Positions 18,138 to 32,260 of a stretch of 34,029 nt of DNA are shown here, piece by piece. Positions within the stretch are counted from its first letter, which is position 1. Each line of letters starts with the position of its first letter. This DNA comes from a bacterium (GTDB lineage Bacteria > Bacillota_I > Bacilli_A > Acholeplasmatales > JAEDCM01). Both the position numbers and the translations under genes were made by a program. The stretch spans positions 1 through 34,029 of the forward strand of contig JAILKD010000088.1 in NCBI GenBank assembly GCA_024694145.1, read 5' to 3'. The notes beneath the pieces were generated by a model. It was not told the DNA's origin, did no database searches, and worked only from the letters and a program-made list of their open reading frames with translations.

Positions 18138-20039
18138 TTATCCCTCCAATAAGGAATCTATAAGTTTATCTATATCATATTCAAACTTGAAATTAGTGTC
18201 ATTAATGAATTTTTTTGAATCACCAACTAATGTTTTAACATCATTTGGTCTAATGAATTTAGGATTAATTCTAACTAATATTTCTTTTGTCTTAGAATTA
18301 ATACCAACTTCATCTAATCCGCTACCATTCCATTCAATATCTATTCCAATTTTACTATATGTTTTTTCAATGAATTCTCTAACTGTATATGCTTTACCTG
18401 TTGAAATCACATAATCATTTGGCTTATCTTGTTGAAGGCATAGCCACATTGCATAAGCATAATCTTTTGCATGTCCCCATTCTCTTTTTGCATCTAAGTT
18501 ACCAAGTTCTAGTATTTTTCTTCTTCCCTTTTTTACCATTTTTGCAAATTCTGTAATTTTCTTTGCTACGAAAACACATTCTCTCATTGGAGATTCATGG
18601 TTATAACAAATACCGTTTGTTACAAACATGTTATTATTCTCTCTATAACATCTAGCCATATAATATGAATATACTTTTGTTACAGCATATGGGCTCCTTG
18701 GTTCAAATGGAGTTGTTTCATCTTGTGGATACATTTCTCCAGAGAAGACATATGGACTACATAAATTAAACATTTTTGTTTTAAAATCACTATTTTTGAT
18801 TGAATCAAGTAATCTCAATGTTCCAAGTGAATTTACTTCAGTAGTATATTCAGGCATTTCAAATGAAACATCTACATGCGATTGACTTGCAATGTGATAT
18901 ATTTCATCTGGTTTAACTGTTTCAATAATTCTATTTATATTGGAAGCATCTGTTAAATCTCCTATGTGACCAAAAAAGTTTGGATTATCTAGGAATTCTA
19001 CAAGATAATCAGATGATAATTTTGACATAGATTTTATAATTCCATGAACTTCATAATCTTTTTCTAAAAGTAATTTTGTTAGATAATAACCATCTTGGTT
19101 AGTAATTCCAGTAATTAAAGCTATTTTTCTCATCTTTAATCTCTCCTTATCTTTTGGCTTAGGAATAACTGCAATTACTTCCAAATTTCCATCGAATATT
19201 ATTTTTTCAGAATCTGCAGTTAAAATAAAAGAATCACCTTTTTTTATTTTTGTATTATTTATTGATCCACATCCATCAATAACATAAAACAATTCAAATC
19301 CTTTGTTTTCGTATTCTGTTTTTTCGCTAATAAAAAGTTTGTATACATTAAAATGTGAATTTTTAAAAGTATTCTCATCTTTAAAATCATGTATTTGGTT
19401 TTTTTGAGTATTATAATTTATTACATTTAAAGCATCAACTAGATTCAATTTTCTATTTACAGATTCATAATAATCAAAAATTCTATATGTTAAATCTGAT
19501 GATTCTTGAACTTCAAGGATAAAAGTATCTCCATGAATCGCATGAACGGTACCAGGCTCTACTATAACTAAATTGCCTGGATTAATTGGTTTTTCAATTA
19601 AGAACTTTTCTACTAGTCCTCTTTGAATCATCTCTAACATTTCTCTTGAATTTTTTAAATCTATACCTAAAGTTACAGTTTTTGCAGTTGTTTCAGGTAA
19701 TATATACCAGCATTCAAATTTTCCAAGAGAGTTACACATTTTTAAAGCATAATCATCATTTGGATGTACTTGAACGCTTAAATTACTACTCGAAGATATT
19801 AATTTTAAAAGTAAAGGGAATTCTTTATCAGGGTAATTTCCAAATAATTCAGGATGCTTTACCCATAAGTGTCTTAATGTTTGACCTTTAAATTTTCCAT
19901 TAGCGATAACTGAAGATTTCCCTCTATATCCTGATATGATCCAAGCTTCTCCTGTGCTTTCGGGACAATCATAAATTTTATTTAATTCTTTACCAGCCCA
20001 TGGCTTCTTTTCAAAATATGGTTTTAAAAATAAAATCAT
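18138..20039 (-). CDS. Fused mannose-6-phosphate isomerase (N-terminal) and GDP-mannose 4,6-dehydratase (C-terminal), 633 aa
   Basis: N-terminus: KPWAGKEL, SVQVHPNDDYAL, VEPGTVHAIHGD. C-terminus from Met at 19133: MRKIALITGITNQDGYYLTKLLLEKDYEVHGI, SPYAVTKVYSYYM. One uninterrupted frame. Confidence 0.9.
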   Translation of the reverse strand: MILFLKPYFEKKPWAGKELNKIYDCPESTGEAWIISGYRGKSSVIANGKFKGQTLRHLWVKHPELFGNYPDKEFPLLLKLISSSSNLSVQVHPNDDYALKMCNSLGKFECWYILPETTAKTVTLGIDLKNSREMLEMIQRGLVEKFLIEKPINPGNLVIVEPGTVHAIHGDTFILEVQESSDLTYRIFDYYESVNRKLNLVDALNVINYNTQKNQIHDFKDENTFKNSHFNVYKLFISEKTEYENKGFELFYVIDGCGSINNTKIKKGDSFILTADSEKIIFDGNLEVIAVIPKPKDKERLKMRKIALITGITNQDGYYLTKLLLEKDYEVHGIIKSMSKLSSDYLVEFLDNPNFFGHIGDLTDASNINRIIETVKPDEIYHIASQSHVDVSFEMPEYTTEVNSLGTLRLLDSIKNSDFKTKMFNLCSPYVFSGEMYPQDETTPFEPRSPYAVTKVYSYYMARCYRENNNMFVTNGICYNHESPMRECVFVAKKITEFAKMVKKGRRKILELGNLDAKREWGHAKDYAYAMWLCLQQDKPNDYVISTGKAYTVREFIEKTYSKIGIDIEWNGSGLDEVGINSKTKEILVRINPKFIRPNDVKTLVGDSKKFINDTNFKFEYDIDKLIDSLLEG

Positions 20040-24716: not shown

Positions 24717-26033
24717 TTATACAAACATTATTAAATAAACTGGTAATATAATTAAATTACCTTCTTTTTTTAGAATATTTTTATTACCAAAAACAATTCC
24801 TTTTTTCATTTTATAATTTCCGTTTTCATCTATTAATTTCGGAATTGCTCTAAAATTATTTTGGTCTTTTCCTGATTTTATTTCTATTGGTAAAATTGAT
24901 AGATTATCATAATCATTAATTAGAAAATCAACTTCTCCAATTTTTTTACTATCAAAATAAAATAATTCATGTCCATGGGATATTAATTCTGTTGCACATA
25001 CTGTTTCATAAACAGATCCTAAATTAATTCCATAGTCATTATCTAATATAGCTCTTACATTATTTTTAAATAAAATGTTTGTTAACAATCCAACATCATT
25101 AAAATATAATTTCATAAGATTCTTGCTACTTGATTCTATAAGAGGAAATATGGGGTTGCTAACAGCTTTAACGCATTGTGCAATACCTGAATGAATCAAA
25201 TATTCGAAATCTTCACTATATTTCTCTGTTCTTTCTTTTTCTTTTTCCTCAATTTTATTTATTTGTAATCTTTTGACTTTGTTTTCCATATATGATGGCA
25301 TCATTTCATATATTCTACGAATATGCAATTTATGTTCTTCATCGTATTGACTACAATCATCACTATAATATAAATATGTTTGTTGCTGAACATTCCTCAT
25401 TTTATTTATGTTTTTCTCATTAACAAATTCTTTTACAGCATCTGGCATTCCACCACAAATCAAATATTCCTTGAATCTTTTTAAAAACGTTTCATGAACT
25501 GACTCGTTAATTTGAGTTAAATTATCAAAACATTCTTTTAAATAGTTTATCGCCTCTTGACCAACGTTGTTTGCCCATAAGAATTCTTCAAAGTCCATTG
25601 GGTACATCTTTAGTTCATTTATAGAACCCATAGGAATAAATGTATGCTTTAAAGTTATTCCAAGTAATGATCCACTTACAATATAGGTATATTTTTTATC
25701 TTGATTTAGTGCTTTTAACATAGTTAGAAGGTGAGGGTATACTTGTATTTCATCTAAAAAAATAATAGTATCATCAAAATCATTTAAAATAGAATTTTCA
25801 TAAGACGAGACCTGAATATAAAAGTCTCTTGTCGTTCTTATATTTGAAAAAATTTTTTCACCATTATAATCATCTTTTAAATTTATTTCTAGATAATTTT
25901 TAAAGTGTTTTTTTGAAAGATGCCTAATAATAAATGTTTTGCCTACTTGCCTTGCACCATCAATAACAAGAATTGTTTCTCTTTTACTTTTAAAATATTC
26001 AATTATTGCATTTTCTATCTTTCTTTTAAACAT
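24717..26033 (-). CDS. AAA ATPase with DUF4143-type C-terminal domain (copy 1)
   Basis: DGARQVGKTFII Walker A, TIIFLDEIQVYPHLL Walker B, SGSLLGI, MDFEEFLWA, GEVDFLINDYDNLSILPIEIKSGK. Start at MFKRK favoured (GGTGAT upstream); track start is 26045. Confidence 0.88.
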   Translation of the reverse strand: MFKRKIENAIIEYFKSKRETILVIDGARQVGKTFIIRHLSKKHFKNYLEINLKDDYNGEKIFSNIRTTRDFYIQVSSYENSILNDFDDTIIFLDEIQVYPHLLTMLKALNQDKKYTYIVSGSLLGITLKHTFIPMGSINELKMYPMDFEEFLWANNVGQEAINYLKECFDNLTQINESVHETFLKRFKEYLICGGMPDAVKEFVNEKNINKMRNVQQQTYLYYSDDCSQYDEEHKLHIRRIYEMMPSYMENKVKRLQINKIEEKEKERTEKYSEDFEYLIHSGIAQCVKAVSNPIFPLIESSSKNLMKLYFNDVGLLTNILFKNNVRAILDNDYGINLGSVYETVCATELISHGHELFYFDSKKIGEVDFLINDYDNLSILPIEIKSGKDQNNFRAIPKLIDENGNYKMKKGIVFGNKNILKKEGNLIILPVYLIMFV

Positions 26034-26049
26034 AATTATCACCACTTTT

Positions 26050-26127
26050 GCACTTTTCTAATATAATTATACTACTAATTTTGCACTTTTCCAATAAAAA
26101 ATAGGCGTAAAAAATACACTTTTCCAA
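26050..26127. repeat. 33-bp-period repeat array in promoter of ATPase copy 1
   Basis: Cores GCACTTTTCTAA at 26050, GCACTTTTCCAA at 26083, ACACTTTTCCAA at 26116; exact 33-bp spacing. Confidence 0.8.
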
Positions 26128-27235: not shown

Positions 27236-27532
27236 TTATCTTTTTTCAAATTTTTTTCTCATTTTCTCATATTTTATAACTTCATCTATATTTTTAAAAT
27301 TAGGATTAGAAAACATATTTATTATCTCATCATCTAAATCTATTGCAACACATAATTTAGTTAATGCATGCAATGATATTTCTCCTTTTGATTCAAATCT
27401 TTTAATTGTTCCAAAAGGAACATTACTCATAGTTGCTAATTCTTTTTGTGTTATATTTTTAATTTTTCTTAACATTTTAAATCTTTTAGCTAACCCTAAA
27501 ATCATTTCGTCTGTAGTTAAAAAATATAGCAT
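27236..27532 (-). CDS. XRE-family HTH regulator (HipB-like)
   Basis: RFKMLRKIKNITQKELATMSNVPFGTIKRFESKGEISLHALTKLCVAIDLDDEI; AGGGG upstream of start. No HipA kinase ORF adjacent. Confidence 0.85.
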   Translation of the reverse strand: MLYFLTTDEMILGLAKRFKMLRKIKNITQKELATMSNVPFGTIKRFESKGEISLHALTKLCVAIDLDDEIINMFSNPNFKNIDEVIKYEKMRKKFEKR

Positions 27533-27553: not shown

Positions 27554-27605
27554 ATAACATATTGTCTTTTTGTGCTTCTATTTTGCAAAAAGGATAATAT
27601 GTTAT
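27554..27605. promoter_or_regulatory. Inverted repeat upstream of the XRE gene
   Basis: Arms ATAACATATTGTCTTTTTG (27554-27572) and CAAAAAGGATAATATGTTAT (27586-27605), about 18/20 complementary, 13-nt centre. Confidence 0.65.
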
Positions 27606-28948
27606 ACCAATAAATAAGCCATATAATATGGAATAGTTAATATATTATTATTTTCTCCAACATTACTATTACATAATTTTATTAAGCCGTTAACGCTTGG
27701 ATATGTTTTTTTGTCGTTTAAAATAGTTTTTGAAGATTTTGTATTACCATTTTTAGCTTTTACTTCTACTAAAGTAATTATTTTGTTATATTTTGTTATA
27801 AAATCAATTTCTAATCCACTTTCTTTTGAAAAATAGAATAAAGGAATATTCATTTTAGAAAAAGCATCTGCAATTATATTTTCATAGATATATCCCTTAT
27901 ATTGCCCCATATCACCTAGAATAATATCACTTGCTGTTCCGTCATCTAACATAGATATAAATAATCCTGTATCAGCAAAATATAATTTAAATATATTGCT
28001 AATTTTATTGCCTTCTAGTGGATTTTCAAGAATAGATAAATTATAACAATAATTTACTAATCCGTAATCAACTAACCATTGTATTGCAGAATCATATTTT
28101 GCTGATGATCCTTTTTTCTCTATGTTTGAATACATAAACTTCTTGTTTTCTTTAGCTAACTGAGACGTGATAGATGAATATATTTTATTAATATTAGCTA
28201 ATAAAGATAAATCAGTTTTCTCGTTTTCTTTTTCATCTAAATGTTTTCCAAAATCATCTTTATAGCCTTCAAGGATATCTTTTTGTTCAATTAATGCATC
28301 GCGATAATTATTATTTCTAAAAAAAGCATCAACAACAGCAGGCATTCCACCAACACAAATGTATTCCCTAAAATACCTAAGCATAGCTTCATGTATAGAA
28401 TCTCTTACGGGCCTTCTATTAATAAAACAGTCTTTTATGTATGATAATGTATCTTTATTAATTCCTTTAGCCCATAAAAACTCTTCAAAGTCCATAGGCT
28501 TCATATAAACTGTATGCTCAAATCCGATTGGAGCACCACCATGATATTTTTTATTGTATCCTTTCAGTCCTAAAAGGGATCCTGAAGCGATTATATCAAA
28601 TCTTCCGTCCTCCATAAAAGGCTTTATAGCAGCTCTTGCTCCAGAACATTCTTGTATTTCATCAAGAACTAAAACGGTTTTAAACGGAATGAATTTTTCT
28701 TTTGGCCTAATAAAAGAAATATTAGTGATAATATCATTAACATTTAAGTCTTCATTAAAACATTTTTTAAGTTCAATATCTGTTTTAAAATTTATATATA
28801 TCACATTTTCATAATTCTCTTTAGAAAATTTTTTTATTATAAAAGTTTTACCAACTTGCCTTAATCCTTTTAAAATAAATGCTTTTTTCTTAAACTGAAG
28901 TGATTTTTTCCACTCGTAGAGCTCTTTTTCGATTTTTCTTTCAAACAT
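27602..28948 (-). CDS. AAA ATPase with DUF4143-type C-terminal domain (copy 2)
   Basis: KGLRQVGKTFII, VLVLDEIQECSGA, SGSLLGL, MDFEEFLWAKG, GLEIDFITKYNKIITLVEVKAKNG. Start at MFERK favoured (AAGGGTGAT upstream); track start is 28957. Confidence 0.88.
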   Translation of the reverse strand: MFERKIEKELYEWKKSLQFKKKAFILKGLRQVGKTFIIKKFSKENYENVIYINFKTDIELKKCFNEDLNVNDIITNISFIRPKEKFIPFKTVLVLDEIQECSGARAAIKPFMEDGRFDIIASGSLLGLKGYNKKYHGGAPIGFEHTVYMKPMDFEEFLWAKGINKDTLSYIKDCFINRRPVRDSIHEAMLRYFREYICVGGMPAVVDAFFRNNNYRDALIEQKDILEGYKDDFGKHLDEKENEKTDLSLLANINKIYSSITSQLAKENKKFMYSNIEKKGSSAKYDSAIQWLVDYGLVNYCYNLSILENPLEGNKISNIFKLYFADTGLFISMLDDGTASDIILGDMGQYKGYIYENIIADAFSKMNIPLFYFSKESGLEIDFITKYNKIITLVEVKAKNGNTKSSKTILNDKKTYPSVNGLIKLCNSNVGENNNILTIPYYMAYLLV

Positions 28949-28975
28949 ATTTATCACCCTTCTTTAATTATATTA

Positions 28976-29107
28976 TAGACTTTTCCAAGCGACTTTTCAA
29001 CATATTTATAGACTTTTCCAAGTGAGTTTTTAGCAAAACTATAGACTTTTCCGAGCGACTTTTTTCATTTTAAGTAGATTTTTCCAAGGGACTTTTATAA
29101 AAAATGT
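28976..29107. repeat. 33-bp-period repeat array (4 units) in promoter of ATPase copy 2
   Basis: Units at 28976, 29009, 29042, 29075; consensus TAGACTTTTCCAAGCGACTTTT plus 11 variable nt; exact 33-bp spacing. Confidence 0.9.
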
Positions 29108-29235
29108 TTTATTTTTCTTATTATAATTTAAAATATTTTTTCTTATTTTACACAAAATAAAGCTTTGTTGTAAATAAGTTAAATAAATGATAAAATTAAT
29201 ATAGTATATTAAAAGTTCTACTATTGGAGGTATTT

Positions 29236-30414
29236 ATGGTAAATAAAGTTTTTAGAGATCCTCTATATGGCTATGTAAGAGTAAATGATGAAATAATTGA
29301 TGAATTGATAAATTCAACTGAATTTCAGCGTTTAAGACGTATAAAACAATTATGTGGTGTATCAATGGTCTTTCATATGGCAGATCATACTAGATTTTCT
29401 CATTCACTAGGTGCATATGAGCTTGCTCGTGAAGTGTTAGAGAAGGTAATTGATGTTAAAAATGCATTGAATGATTATGAAAAAACTGTTTTTTTATGTA
29501 GTGCACTACTTCATGATGTTGGACATGGTCCATATTCACATAGTTTTGAAAAAATATTTAAAATCAGTCATGAAACAATGACTAATAATATTATTTTAGG
29601 TGATAGTCATATCAATAAAATTTTAACTAAATATAATCCAAATTTAGCAAGCGATATTGCTTCAGTTATATCGCATAAGCATAAATTCCCTTTAATCGAA
29701 CAACTTGTTTCTAGTCAACTTGATGTTGATAGAATGGATTATTTAAGAAGGGACGCTTATTTTACAGGTGCACAATTTGGTGATATCGATATAGAAAAAA
29801 TATTACGTGGTATGCTTGTTAAAAATGGTAAGATTTTATTTAAATATAATTCAGTACCAAATATTGAAGATTATTTAATGAGTAGATACCATATGTATTA
29901 TCAAGTATATTTCCATCCGGTATCACGTTGTTTTGAAGTTATGTTAGAAATGATTTATCAAAGATGGTATGAGTTAATAAAGAGTGGTTATCAATTTAGA
30001 ACTGATGTAAGCTTATTAATTGATGTAATTGATAAAAAGACAGTCGACGCATTCTTAAAAATAGATGATGTATATGTAAATGGATGTATTCAACAATTTC
30101 AATATGAAAAAGATAGAATCTTAAGTGATTTAGCTACTAGATTATTTAATAGAAAACTATTTAACCATATTGATTTAAAATATGCATCAGATGAACAAGT
30201 TGATGAAATAAAAAAACTCAAGAATAACGATAAATACTATTATAAAGAAGATGTTGTTGCTAAATCTGCATATGATTATCAAATAGATGAACAAATAAAA
30301 GTATTAATCCCAGGAGATAAAGAAGTAGATTTACTAGAATTCTCACCAATAGTAAAAGCATTTAGTAGAAGTAGTAAATATACATCTAAATTAATATACT
30401 ATAGTGAAATTTAA
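29236..30414 (+). CDS. HD-superfamily phosphohydrolase (dNTPase-like/YwfO-like)
   Basis: HTRFSHSLGAYELA, LLHDVGHGPYSHSFE, SSQLDVDRMDYLRRDAYFTG. Start at ATG after GGAGG; track start 29224 is a TTG. Confidence 0.92.
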   Translation: MVNKVFRDPLYGYVRVNDEIIDELINSTEFQRLRRIKQLCGVSMVFHMADHTRFSHSLGAYELAREVLEKVIDVKNALNDYEKTVFLCSALLHDVGHGPYSHSFEKIFKISHETMTNNIILGDSHINKILTKYNPNLASDIASVISHKHKFPLIEQLVSSQLDVDRMDYLRRDAYFTGAQFGDIDIEKILRGMLVKNGKILFKYNSVPNIEDYLMSRYHMYYQVYFHPVSRCFEVMLEMIYQRWYELIKSGYQFRTDVSLLIDVIDKKTVDAFLKIDDVYVNGCIQQFQYEKDRILSDLATRLFNRKLFNHIDLKYASDEQVDEIKKLKNNDKYYYKEDVVAKSAYDYQIDEQIKVLIPGDKEVDLLEFSPIVKAFSRSSKYTSKLIYYSEI

Positions 30415-30955: not shown

Positions 30956-32260
30956 ATGATTAATATGGATACAAACAAGATAATTAAAGATAATAATTTT
31001 CATATCAAAAAGAAGTTTGGACAAAACTTTTTAACTGATAAAAAAATATTAGAAAAAATCATTTCTAGTGCCGAACTAGATAGTGAAGTTGGAGTAATAG
31101 AAATAGGACCTGGACTAGGTGCTTTAACAAGCATGTTATGTGAGAATTCTAAGCGCGTTTTAGCTTATGAAATTGATAGTGATTTAATACCTATTTTAGA
31201 AAAAAATCTTGCTTCTTATAATAACTTAACTATACTAAATAAAGACATATTAGAAGCTGATGTAAATAAAGATATTAAAACATATTTATCTGATTGTAAA
31301 AGAGTTTATGTTGTTGCTAATCTTCCATATTATATTACTACACCTATATTACTTAATTTATTACAAAAGGTAAAGATTGATAAATATGTTGTTATGATGC
31401 AGCTTGAAGTAGCTGATAGATTATGTGGTAAAGTAAGCACAAAAGAATACAATTCCTTATCTATTACAATACAATATCAAGCAAGTGTTAAAAAGCTATT
31501 TAAGGTTCCTAGAACTGTATTTAAACCTGCACCAAATGTTGATAGTGCAGTTATTGAAATAAAAGCTTATAGTAACATAGAACATAAGCCTAGAAACCCT
31601 GAATTCTTCTTTGATGTAGTTAGAAATTCATTTGGTCAAAGAAGAAAAACATTAATTAATAATTTAATGAATCGTTTTGGTCCTGAAAAGGAAAGATTCA
31701 TTAAAATATTAAATGAAATGAATTTAAAAGAAACTGTTAGAAGCGAAGAATTAAGCGTAGATGAATTTGTAACTTTATCAGATAAAATCTTAGAAGAATT
31801 TATGTCAAAAGAAATGGTAGATTTGTTTGATAAAGACTTACAACCACTAGGTAAGCGCGTAGCAAGAAATACCTTAAATGAGCCAAATGCCTACTTTAAG
31901 GTTACTTGTGCAATTATTAAATTTAATGGTTTATATTTTATTCAAAAAAGAAGCCCATATAAACCAATTAGCCCAAATATTTATGAGTTCCCAGGTGGTG
32001 GGTTAGATAGTGGTGAGTCTGAATTAGATGGCTTAATTAGAGAAGTAAAAGAAGAAACTGAACTAGAACTTAAAAATATAGAGTTATTAGATAAAATAGT
32101 TGGTAAATATATTATTAGATGCATTTATATGGCTGAAGCAGTAAGCGATAAGGTTGTATTACATGAGGCTGTAGATTATAAGTGGGTTAAAAAGGATGAA
32201 TTAAAAGAAATATCTGTAATGAAAAAGAACCCTAGTTTAATGGAGAAATTAGATGATTAA
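30956..32260 (+). CDS. ksgA: KsgA/RsmA 16S rRNA dimethyladenosine transferase fused to a C-terminal NUDIX domain
   Basis: KKFGQNFLTDKKILEKI, IEIGPGLGALT, VANLPYYITTPIL, then FPGGGLDSGESELDGLIREVKEETEL NUDIX box. Start may be 30965. Confidence 0.92.
   Translation: MINMDTNKIIKDNNFHIKKKFGQNFLTDKKILEKIISSAELDSEVGVIEIGPGLGALTSMLCENSKRVLAYEIDSDLIPILEKNLASYNNLTILNKDILEADVNKDIKTYLSDCKRVYVVANLPYYITTPILLNLLQKVKIDKYVVMMQLEVADRLCGKVSTKEYNSLSITIQYQASVKKLFKVPRTVFKPAPNVDSAVIEIKAYSNIEHKPRNPEFFFDVVRNSFGQRRKTLINNLMNRFGPEKERFIKILNEMNLKETVRSEELSVDEFVTLSDKILEEFMSKEMVDLFDKDLQPLGKRVARNTLNEPNAYFKVTCAIIKFNGLYFIQKRSPYKPISPNIYEFPGGGLDSGESELDGLIREVKEETELELKNIELLDKIVGKYIIRCIYMAEAVSDKVVLHEAVDYKWVKKDELKEISVMKKNPSLMEKLDD

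Follow-up and report, generated by a model that had tools for sequence, protein, structure and literature searches.

A 33-bp repeat array over the promoter of a PDC-S01 ATPase gene as a probable autogenous operator

Introduction

Plasmid iterons and the origin boxes of Orc1/Cdc6 are helically phased direct repeats that lie by the gene of an AAA+ DNA-binding protein, and phage immunity repressors form repressor–operator pairs that diversify, leaving related elements without cross-talk. Three direct repeats mediate the repression of a defence island by RptR (PMC12255303). Here an array of direct repeats is described from a bacterium of the Acholeplasmatales, in a stretch of 34,029 nucleotides (contig JAILKD010000088.1 of assembly GCA_024694145.1) that is called the window below. 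The array lies over the promoter of a gene for an ATPase with a C-terminal DUF4143 domain, the second of two such genes in the window (copy 2), which belongs to the candidate defence family PDC-S01. The array is probably an autogenous operator, bound by the ATPase whose gene it precedes.

PDC-S01 consists of an ATPase fused to a domain of the PD-(D/E)XK superfamily and ranks as the fourth most common (candidate) defence in prokaryotes; about 39,000 were detected in one survey, with many transfers between domains, and validation is pending for most PDCs (PMC12988326). In rumen genomes it is the most frequent single defence locus (PMC13356809). A family member from Thermus thermophilus, TT_P0211, was raised 6.6-fold in Argonaute-containing cells that carried a plasmid (PMC4406477), and COG1373, to which the family corresponds, is found among horizontally transferred gut genes (PMC10782964). 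The name DUF4143 occurs in a single paper of the open literature searched, and that literature yielded no experiments on defence by the family. Promoter arrays of PDC-S01 are not described in the searchable literature, which excluded the original preprint (10.1101/2024.01.29.577857); the passages of PMC12988326 containing the words repeat or promoter mention no array, and PMC13356809 was searched for PDC-S01 alone.

The PDC-S01 array shares with iterons and origin boxes the phased direct repeats beside an AAA+ gene, and the protein has a fold similarity to Orc1/Cdc6. It differs from iterons in overlapping the promoter, in its many chromosomal copies, and in tracking the DUF4143 domain rather than mainly the winged helix. 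The private pairing predicted for PDC-S01 is of the repressor–operator type seen in phage immunity, but PDC-S01 is a nuclease-fold ATPase and its array period (23 or 33 bp) is fixed per clade. The likeness to the RptR operators lies in direct repeats within the promoter of a defence gene, bound by a repressor of the native promoter (PMC12255303), a binding that is predicted here. RptR is a small, separate regulator of a restriction-modification island (PMC12255303), whereas the PDC-S01 ATPase is the sole gene attached to its array and the core differs for every paralogue.

A four-unit array over the promoter of copy 2

Tandem units begin at 28976, 29009, 29042 and 29075, exactly 33 bp apart, and the array (28976-29096) lies on the minus strand, as the gene does (Table 1). 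Each unit is composed of a 22-bp core (AAAAGTCGCTTGGAAAAGTCTA in unit 1) and 11 bp of filler without conservation. The original prediction of a 33-bp array with these four starts was borne out by a repeat search and by Tandem Repeats Finder (TRF), which places period 33 at 28973-29097 with a score of 132, the highest tandem-repeat score of the window. The units are imperfect copies, with 0, 2, 1 and 2 mismatches to TAGACTTTTCCAAGCGACTTTT in units 1 to 4, and the predicted recurrence of GACTTTT at +13 is present within unit 1. A search of the whole genome (1.57 Mb) with the 20-bp core, allowing up to 3 mismatches, returned 4 matches, all of them the units themselves, and the control returned 0; a looser 17-bp pattern gave 6 matches in the window against 1.3 expected. 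An origin of the array by chance or low complexity is excluded by shuffles, by downstream and in-gene controls in the homologues described below, and by this whole-genome count.

The promoter embedded in unit 1 is likewise as predicted: a -35 element TTGAAA (29000-28995), a 17-bp spacer and a -10 element TATAAT (28977-28972) on the minus strand, 11 of the 12 positions matching. The ribosome-binding-like sequence AAGAAGGGTG follows, and then the ATG at 28948 that was taken as the start codon; the list of open reading frames (ORFs) gives an upstream GTG at 28957. On the far side of the array an HD-domain phosphohydrolase gene with a weak PADLOC dGTPase match (29224-30414) starts divergently, and the array could act on both this gene and that of the ATPase.

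Arrays upstream of homologues

The original prediction proposed looking for 30-36-bp periodic repeats upstream of homologues. This was done for 78 loci, one genome per species, from Erysipelotrichaceae, Lachnospiraceae, Christensenella, Treponema, Fibrobacter, Flexilinea, Methanomethylophilaceae and Thermoplasmata. These loci represent Bacillota, Spirochaetota, Fibrobacterota and Archaea, and almost all have an upstream array. With an array scored as a self-match of at least 16/20 within 192 nt upstream, 72 of 77 homologues carry one directly upstream at the same 32-33-bp period or its double, as compared with 3/75 downstream stretches, 0/76 gene interiors and 5/385 shuffled sequences. The best lags, with tied loci entered under each lag, were 33 (47 loci), 66 (20), 64 (6), 32 (5), 65 (1) and 67 (1). 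Start codons were set by simple rules, many of the genomes are metagenome bins, and the thresholds miss weak arrays.

Most matches to the tandem pattern RAAAAGTG-N25-RAAAAGTG across 39 of these genomes were arrays of this sort, while the reversed control gave about 8 matches. Several of the arrays of this type have a differing left half and lie 5' of other AAA_14-DUF4143 paralogues. Plasmid-borne relatives from Segatella copri, Glaesserella parasuis, Vibrio coralliilyticus and Bacteroides cellulosilyticus score 17-20/20 at 32, 33 or 66 bp. An exact scan of viral contigs with one motif variant gave 0 matches, which says little about other variants.

Array period and private cores

A wider survey of DUF4143 genes covered the window's phylum and the archaeal phylum of locus L038, together with database matches and further upstream stretches. 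An array scoring at least 17/20 was present in 157 of the 219 upstream regions, against 1% of Markov-resampled sequences and 4% of downstream ones. On a tree of 169 proteins made with FastTree, a fast method, the array period follows the protein clade. One clade of 84 (of the KRKI..WK..GARQVGKT type, branch support 100) has 69 arrays of about 33 bp and none of 23 bp. Another, of 36 (YxPRIxD..FGAxxIEGPKWCGKT type, branch support also 100), has 34 arrays of about 23 bp, and 54 of 63 additional members have arrays of 23, 24 or 46 bp. The two periods need two changes on the protein tree. Judged by eye, the 23-bp unit has a core of about 12 bp and about 11 bp of filler, where the 33-bp unit has 22 and 11. 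The remaining DUF4143 subfamilies have other arrays or none; in some members of the IKVITGIRRCGKS subfamily (L230, L234, L236 and L237), paired boxes, partly inverted repeats, stand about 62-67 bp apart around the promoter and are not in tandem.

Every paralogue carries a private core, and the core drifts along with the protein. The archaeon G205 has 32 DUF4143 genes in 1.5 Mb. A blind scan through 800 kb of its sequence, for arrays with three units and a period of 22-24 or 32-34 bp, yielded 13 arrays, 11 of them upstream of a DUF4143 gene, one in coding low complexity and one (C9:20664) before another gene; one of the arrays (C6:40531) was matched to its gene through coordinates from other surveys. 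The cores of these paralogues differ, and each has roughly chance-level matches elsewhere. Among 111 proteins from the 33-bp clade, those with less than 45% protein identity have cores no more alike than by chance (about 13/22), and the similarity reaches 17.0, 18.3 and 19.5 at 60-70, 70-80 and 80-95% identity. The Mantel correlation between core and protein identity is 0.50 (rho; permutation maximum 0.23), and downstream 22-mers stay at 11.9. Cores of the 23-bp clade turn over faster and are recognisable only above about 70% protein identity.

With overall identity removed, the protein window that best tracks the array covers residues ~370-405 (r 0.37 against a label-permutation maximum of 0.29). 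This is the DUF4143 stretch ..SGLEIDF..EVKAKNGNTKSS.. that contains the PD-(D/E)XK residues, and the region had the top rank in every identity stratum and in 94 of 100 subsamples. The profile was not replicated in the 23-bp clade because the cores there diverge too fast, being near chance below ~70% identity.

The PDC-S01 protein

On domain matches and a predicted structure, the copy-2 protein is an AAA+/STAND-like ATPase with a winged helix and a PD-(D/E)XK-fold domain, a member of PDC-S01 (COG1373). Its AAA_14 ATPase domain and C-terminal DUF4143 domain both score above the Pfam cut-off, and the PADLOC match to PDC-S01 is full-length (residues 1-446 of 448 to profile positions 1-431 of 439). 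The PDC-S01 profiles also match the copy-1 protein, and every DUF4143 subfamily tested has members that they match. The P-loop reads GLRQVGKT and the PD-(D/E)XK residues are D382, E395 and K397; these three are invariant in 38 homologues, as are G28, R30, Q31, G33, K34 and the acidic Walker-B-type E97. The P-loop/PD-(D/E)XK-type motif pattern is present in 106/114 of the 33-bp set versus 22/35 of the 23-bp set.

The AlphaFold model is confident, with a mean predicted local distance difference test (pLDDT) score of 89.9. A sequence-based search against solved structures gave nothing useful, and the fold search gave distant STAND/Orc-type matches, the nearest being the Walker-type ATPase PABY2304 of Pyrococcus abyssi, CED-4 and origin-DNA-bound Orc1/Cdc6.

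A probable autogenous operator

The reading favoured here, at a probability of roughly 70%, is that the array is an autogenous operator of the PDC-S01 gene, bound by its own ATPase and closing or gating its own promoter. The original prediction of an operator or ATPase-recognition array thus gains support from the homologue arrays, the private co-varying motifs and the promoter match within one unit. Several copies of the ATPase would sit side by side on the 33-bp-spaced units, cooperatively and on roughly one face of the DNA. Since the core of one unit fills the 17-bp promoter spacer, such binding would exclude RNA polymerase and could hold expression low. Release might come with the nucleotide state of the protein, with phage or other foreign DNA, or with dilution of the protein. 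Each paralogue would read its own core, probably through the PD-(D/E)XK (DUF4143) domain, so that the switch recognised by the protein is most likely its own. From these patterns we infer ATPase binding, repression, an inducing signal and any role in defence.

The placement of the promoter was compared across 68 loci with lattice units. The best TTGACA-17-TATAAT-like match falls in the gene-nearest unit in 44 of them and in the second or third unit in the remainder, notably in Treponema. The last core ends a median of 26 nt before the start codon, and three is the commonest number of units. By these matches, the putative operator core is commonly the promoter spacer itself.

Several observations weigh against an autogenous operator. 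In several Treponema loci the best promoter match belongs to a unit further upstream, which would place the later units within the transcript, and a number of Lachnospiraceae and Christensenella-type loci have no good promoter in the lattice. Members below the array threshold make up 14 of the 84 in the 33-bp clade, some with a weak 33-bp signal. That the DUF4143 segment tracks the array is a correlation, seen in one clade, and no contact map. Finally, four array-bearing loci (L129, L134, L120 and C9:20664 of G205) have a non-ATPase gene next; these arrays could be relics or targets in trans.

At L129 and L134, 33-bp arrays (GGTCNNGAAAAGTGT) lie directly 5' of TTGACA-17-TAAAAT-like promoters. 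The ATPase gene is absent from the stretch fetched at either locus, and the L129 array precedes a hydrolase-like gene. The G205 array at contig C9 ~20664 (L320) has three palindromic units (AAAAGTAGTG..CACTACTTTT-like) and a different gene after it; it resembles the array of an ATPase gene in the same archaeon (L256), and is possibly a target in trans or a relic. An array stands beside a truncated DUF4143 fragment at L136 and has no ATPase after it at L121, apparent signs of cassette decay.

A more elaborate form of the autogenous reading is tentative, with the odds somewhat against it. The array-bearing PDC-S01 gene would be self-addressed: the PD-(D/E)XK domain would read a private promoter array that sets expression, perhaps occupied or released upon foreign DNA, and diversification of the array would keep the dozens of paralogues in a single cell free of cross-talk.

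Array and gene as a unit of transfer

Loci with 84-97% identical genes often have only the array and the ORF in common. Their homology extends to some 50-140 bp before the ATG on one side and to the stop codon, or close to it, on the other; the flanks are without similarity. In L083/L084 (97% identical) it stops 110 bp upstream and 67 bp downstream; the limits are 127 and 0 bp in L034/L035 (95.8%) and 132 and -2 bp in L048/L050 (93.9%), and L019/L023 is a further pair of this kind. Some other locus pairs retain synteny. As these comparisons indicate, array and ORF together are a compact and often transferred unit of a gene plus its putative operator.

An alternative is that the array is the target of an ATPase-nuclease, in which the PD-(D/E)XK domain nicks or cuts the array and starts copying or insertion of the cassette, as a homing- or transposon-like selfish element. 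Array and ORF are the unit of homology in otherwise non-homologous surroundings in the first three pairs above, the catalytic-type residues are invariant in A1 and surrounded by the array-tracking segment, and COG1373 is among the horizontally transferred gut genes (PMC10782964). This reading is nevertheless rather unlikely. An intact array next to an active array-cutting nuclease would be self-harming, and the placement over the promoter is left unexplained. Core matches at the 3' end are at chance level in 78 of 79 loci (the exception is L088); with no array or single unit there, the cassette is not a two-ended element, and a two-ended transposon, with its recognition sequence at both ends, is ruled out. 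A Fibrobacter site after an exporter terminator (L049:2250-2860) is occupied by the ATPase cassette or by other genes, depending on the genome, and on this gene content is an insertion hotspot. No clean empty site was found; at this one the alternatives carry other cargo.

Other readings of the array

A host transcription factor that binds the array in place of the ATPase is a quite unlikely explanation. Operator-like direct repeats over a promoter are typical of dedicated regulators, and RptR is a precedent (PMC12255303). The array has nonetheless been retained in Bacillota, Spirochaetota, Fibrobacterota and Archaea alike, and cores differ for each paralogue within one archaeon, with core similarity following the ATPase. 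Nor is there a conserved partner gene beside the array, because homology often ends at the stop codon. The private co-varying motifs, together with the promoter in one unit, favour an ATPase-recognition operator over a host-regulator site.

A replication origin or iteron site loaded by an Orc1/Cdc6-like ATPase would suit helically phased direct repeats, which fit an initiator, and the resemblance of the model to origin-DNA-bound Orc1/Cdc6, among the best PDB matches. It is very improbable, as a single 1.5-Mb genome has up to 32 copies and others have at least a dozen; a regulatory role accords better with how closely the array is tied to the promoter of its gene, and no replicon boundary was seen.

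It is scarcely credible that the array acts as RNA (a 5' leader element) or as a mini-array resembling clustered regularly interspaced short palindromic repeats (CRISPR) with 11-nt spacers, as the conserved core with its variable 11-nt filler and the units past the predicted promoter in some Treponema loci might suggest: the best promoter match is in the last unit at most loci, so that transcription towards the gene mostly leaves the array out, the cores are not the same from one paralogue to another, and a CRISPR array was rejected on filler too short for known spacers (~26-50 nt), imperfect repeats and the lack of cas genes among the window proteins checked.

Copy 1 and other features of the window

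The window's other DUF4143 ATPase gene (copy 1, ATG at 26033) has its own array at 26051-26127, spaced by exactly 33 bp. Its cores are TTGGAAAAGTG at 26127 and 26094 and TTAGAAAAGTG at 26061, with a left half unlike that of copy 2. The two top TRF scores of the window are the two DUF4143 promoter regions. The TTGGAA of copy-1 unit 2 may be the -35 element for a TATAAT at 26071-26066, with a 17-bp spacer. A third such gene in the same genome (contig C5, L002) has repeats AAACTCACTATAAAAAAGTGT at a 33-34-bp period.

Table 1. Positions of the two ATPase genes, their array units and the copy-2 promoter in the window
Feature	Position	Strand	Basis
Copy-1 AAA_14-DUF4143 ATPase, PDC-S01	24717..26033	-	Pfam; PADLOC E 1.1e-156
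Copy-1 unit 1 core, TTAGAAAAGTG	26051..26061	-	Pattern search; TRF period 33, score 95
Copy-1 unit 2 core, TTGGAAAAGTG	26084..26094	-	Pattern search
Copy-1 unit 3 core, TTGGAAAAGTG	26117..26127	-	Pattern search
Copy-2 AAA_14-DUF4143 ATPase, 448 aa, PDC-S01	27602..28948	-	Pfam; PADLOC E 2.4e-132; AlphaFold
Sigma-70-like promoter TTGAAA-17-TATAAT inside copy-2 unit 1	28972..29000	-	11/12 matches
Copy-2 unit 1 core (gene-proximal; occupies promoter spacer)	28976..28997	-	0 mismatches; repeat and genome pattern searches
Copy-2 unit 2 core	29009..29030	-	2 mismatches; repeat and genome pattern searches
Copy-2 unit 3 core	29042..29063	-	1 mismatch; repeat and genome pattern searches
Copy-2 unit 4 core (farthest from gene)	29075..29096	-	2 mismatches to unit 1; repeat and genome pattern searches

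Between the two ATPase genes, Pfam identifies a small HTH_3 protein (27236-27532), another candidate regulator nearby. Elsewhere in the window, a single ORF at 18138-20039, within a polysaccharide cluster, joins a mannose-6-phosphate-isomerase-like part to a GDP-mannose 4,6-dehydratase. At 30956-32260 an RsmA/KsgA-type rRNA dimethylase is fused to a NUDIX domain (Pfam).

Implications for the PDC-S01 family

PDC-S01 is very common, and the arrays offer the likely cognate DNA of each protein. The array of a paralogue provides a built-in specificity control, and a candidate reader segment is available for mutation. The arrays are also a DNA-side signature by which members of the family can be found and classified, and the co-diversification of protein and putative operator is large enough here for learning a recognition code. 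If the self-addressed form of the autogenous reading is true, one of the commonest candidate defence genes would have a genetic switch whose specificity is read by a nuclease-fold domain.
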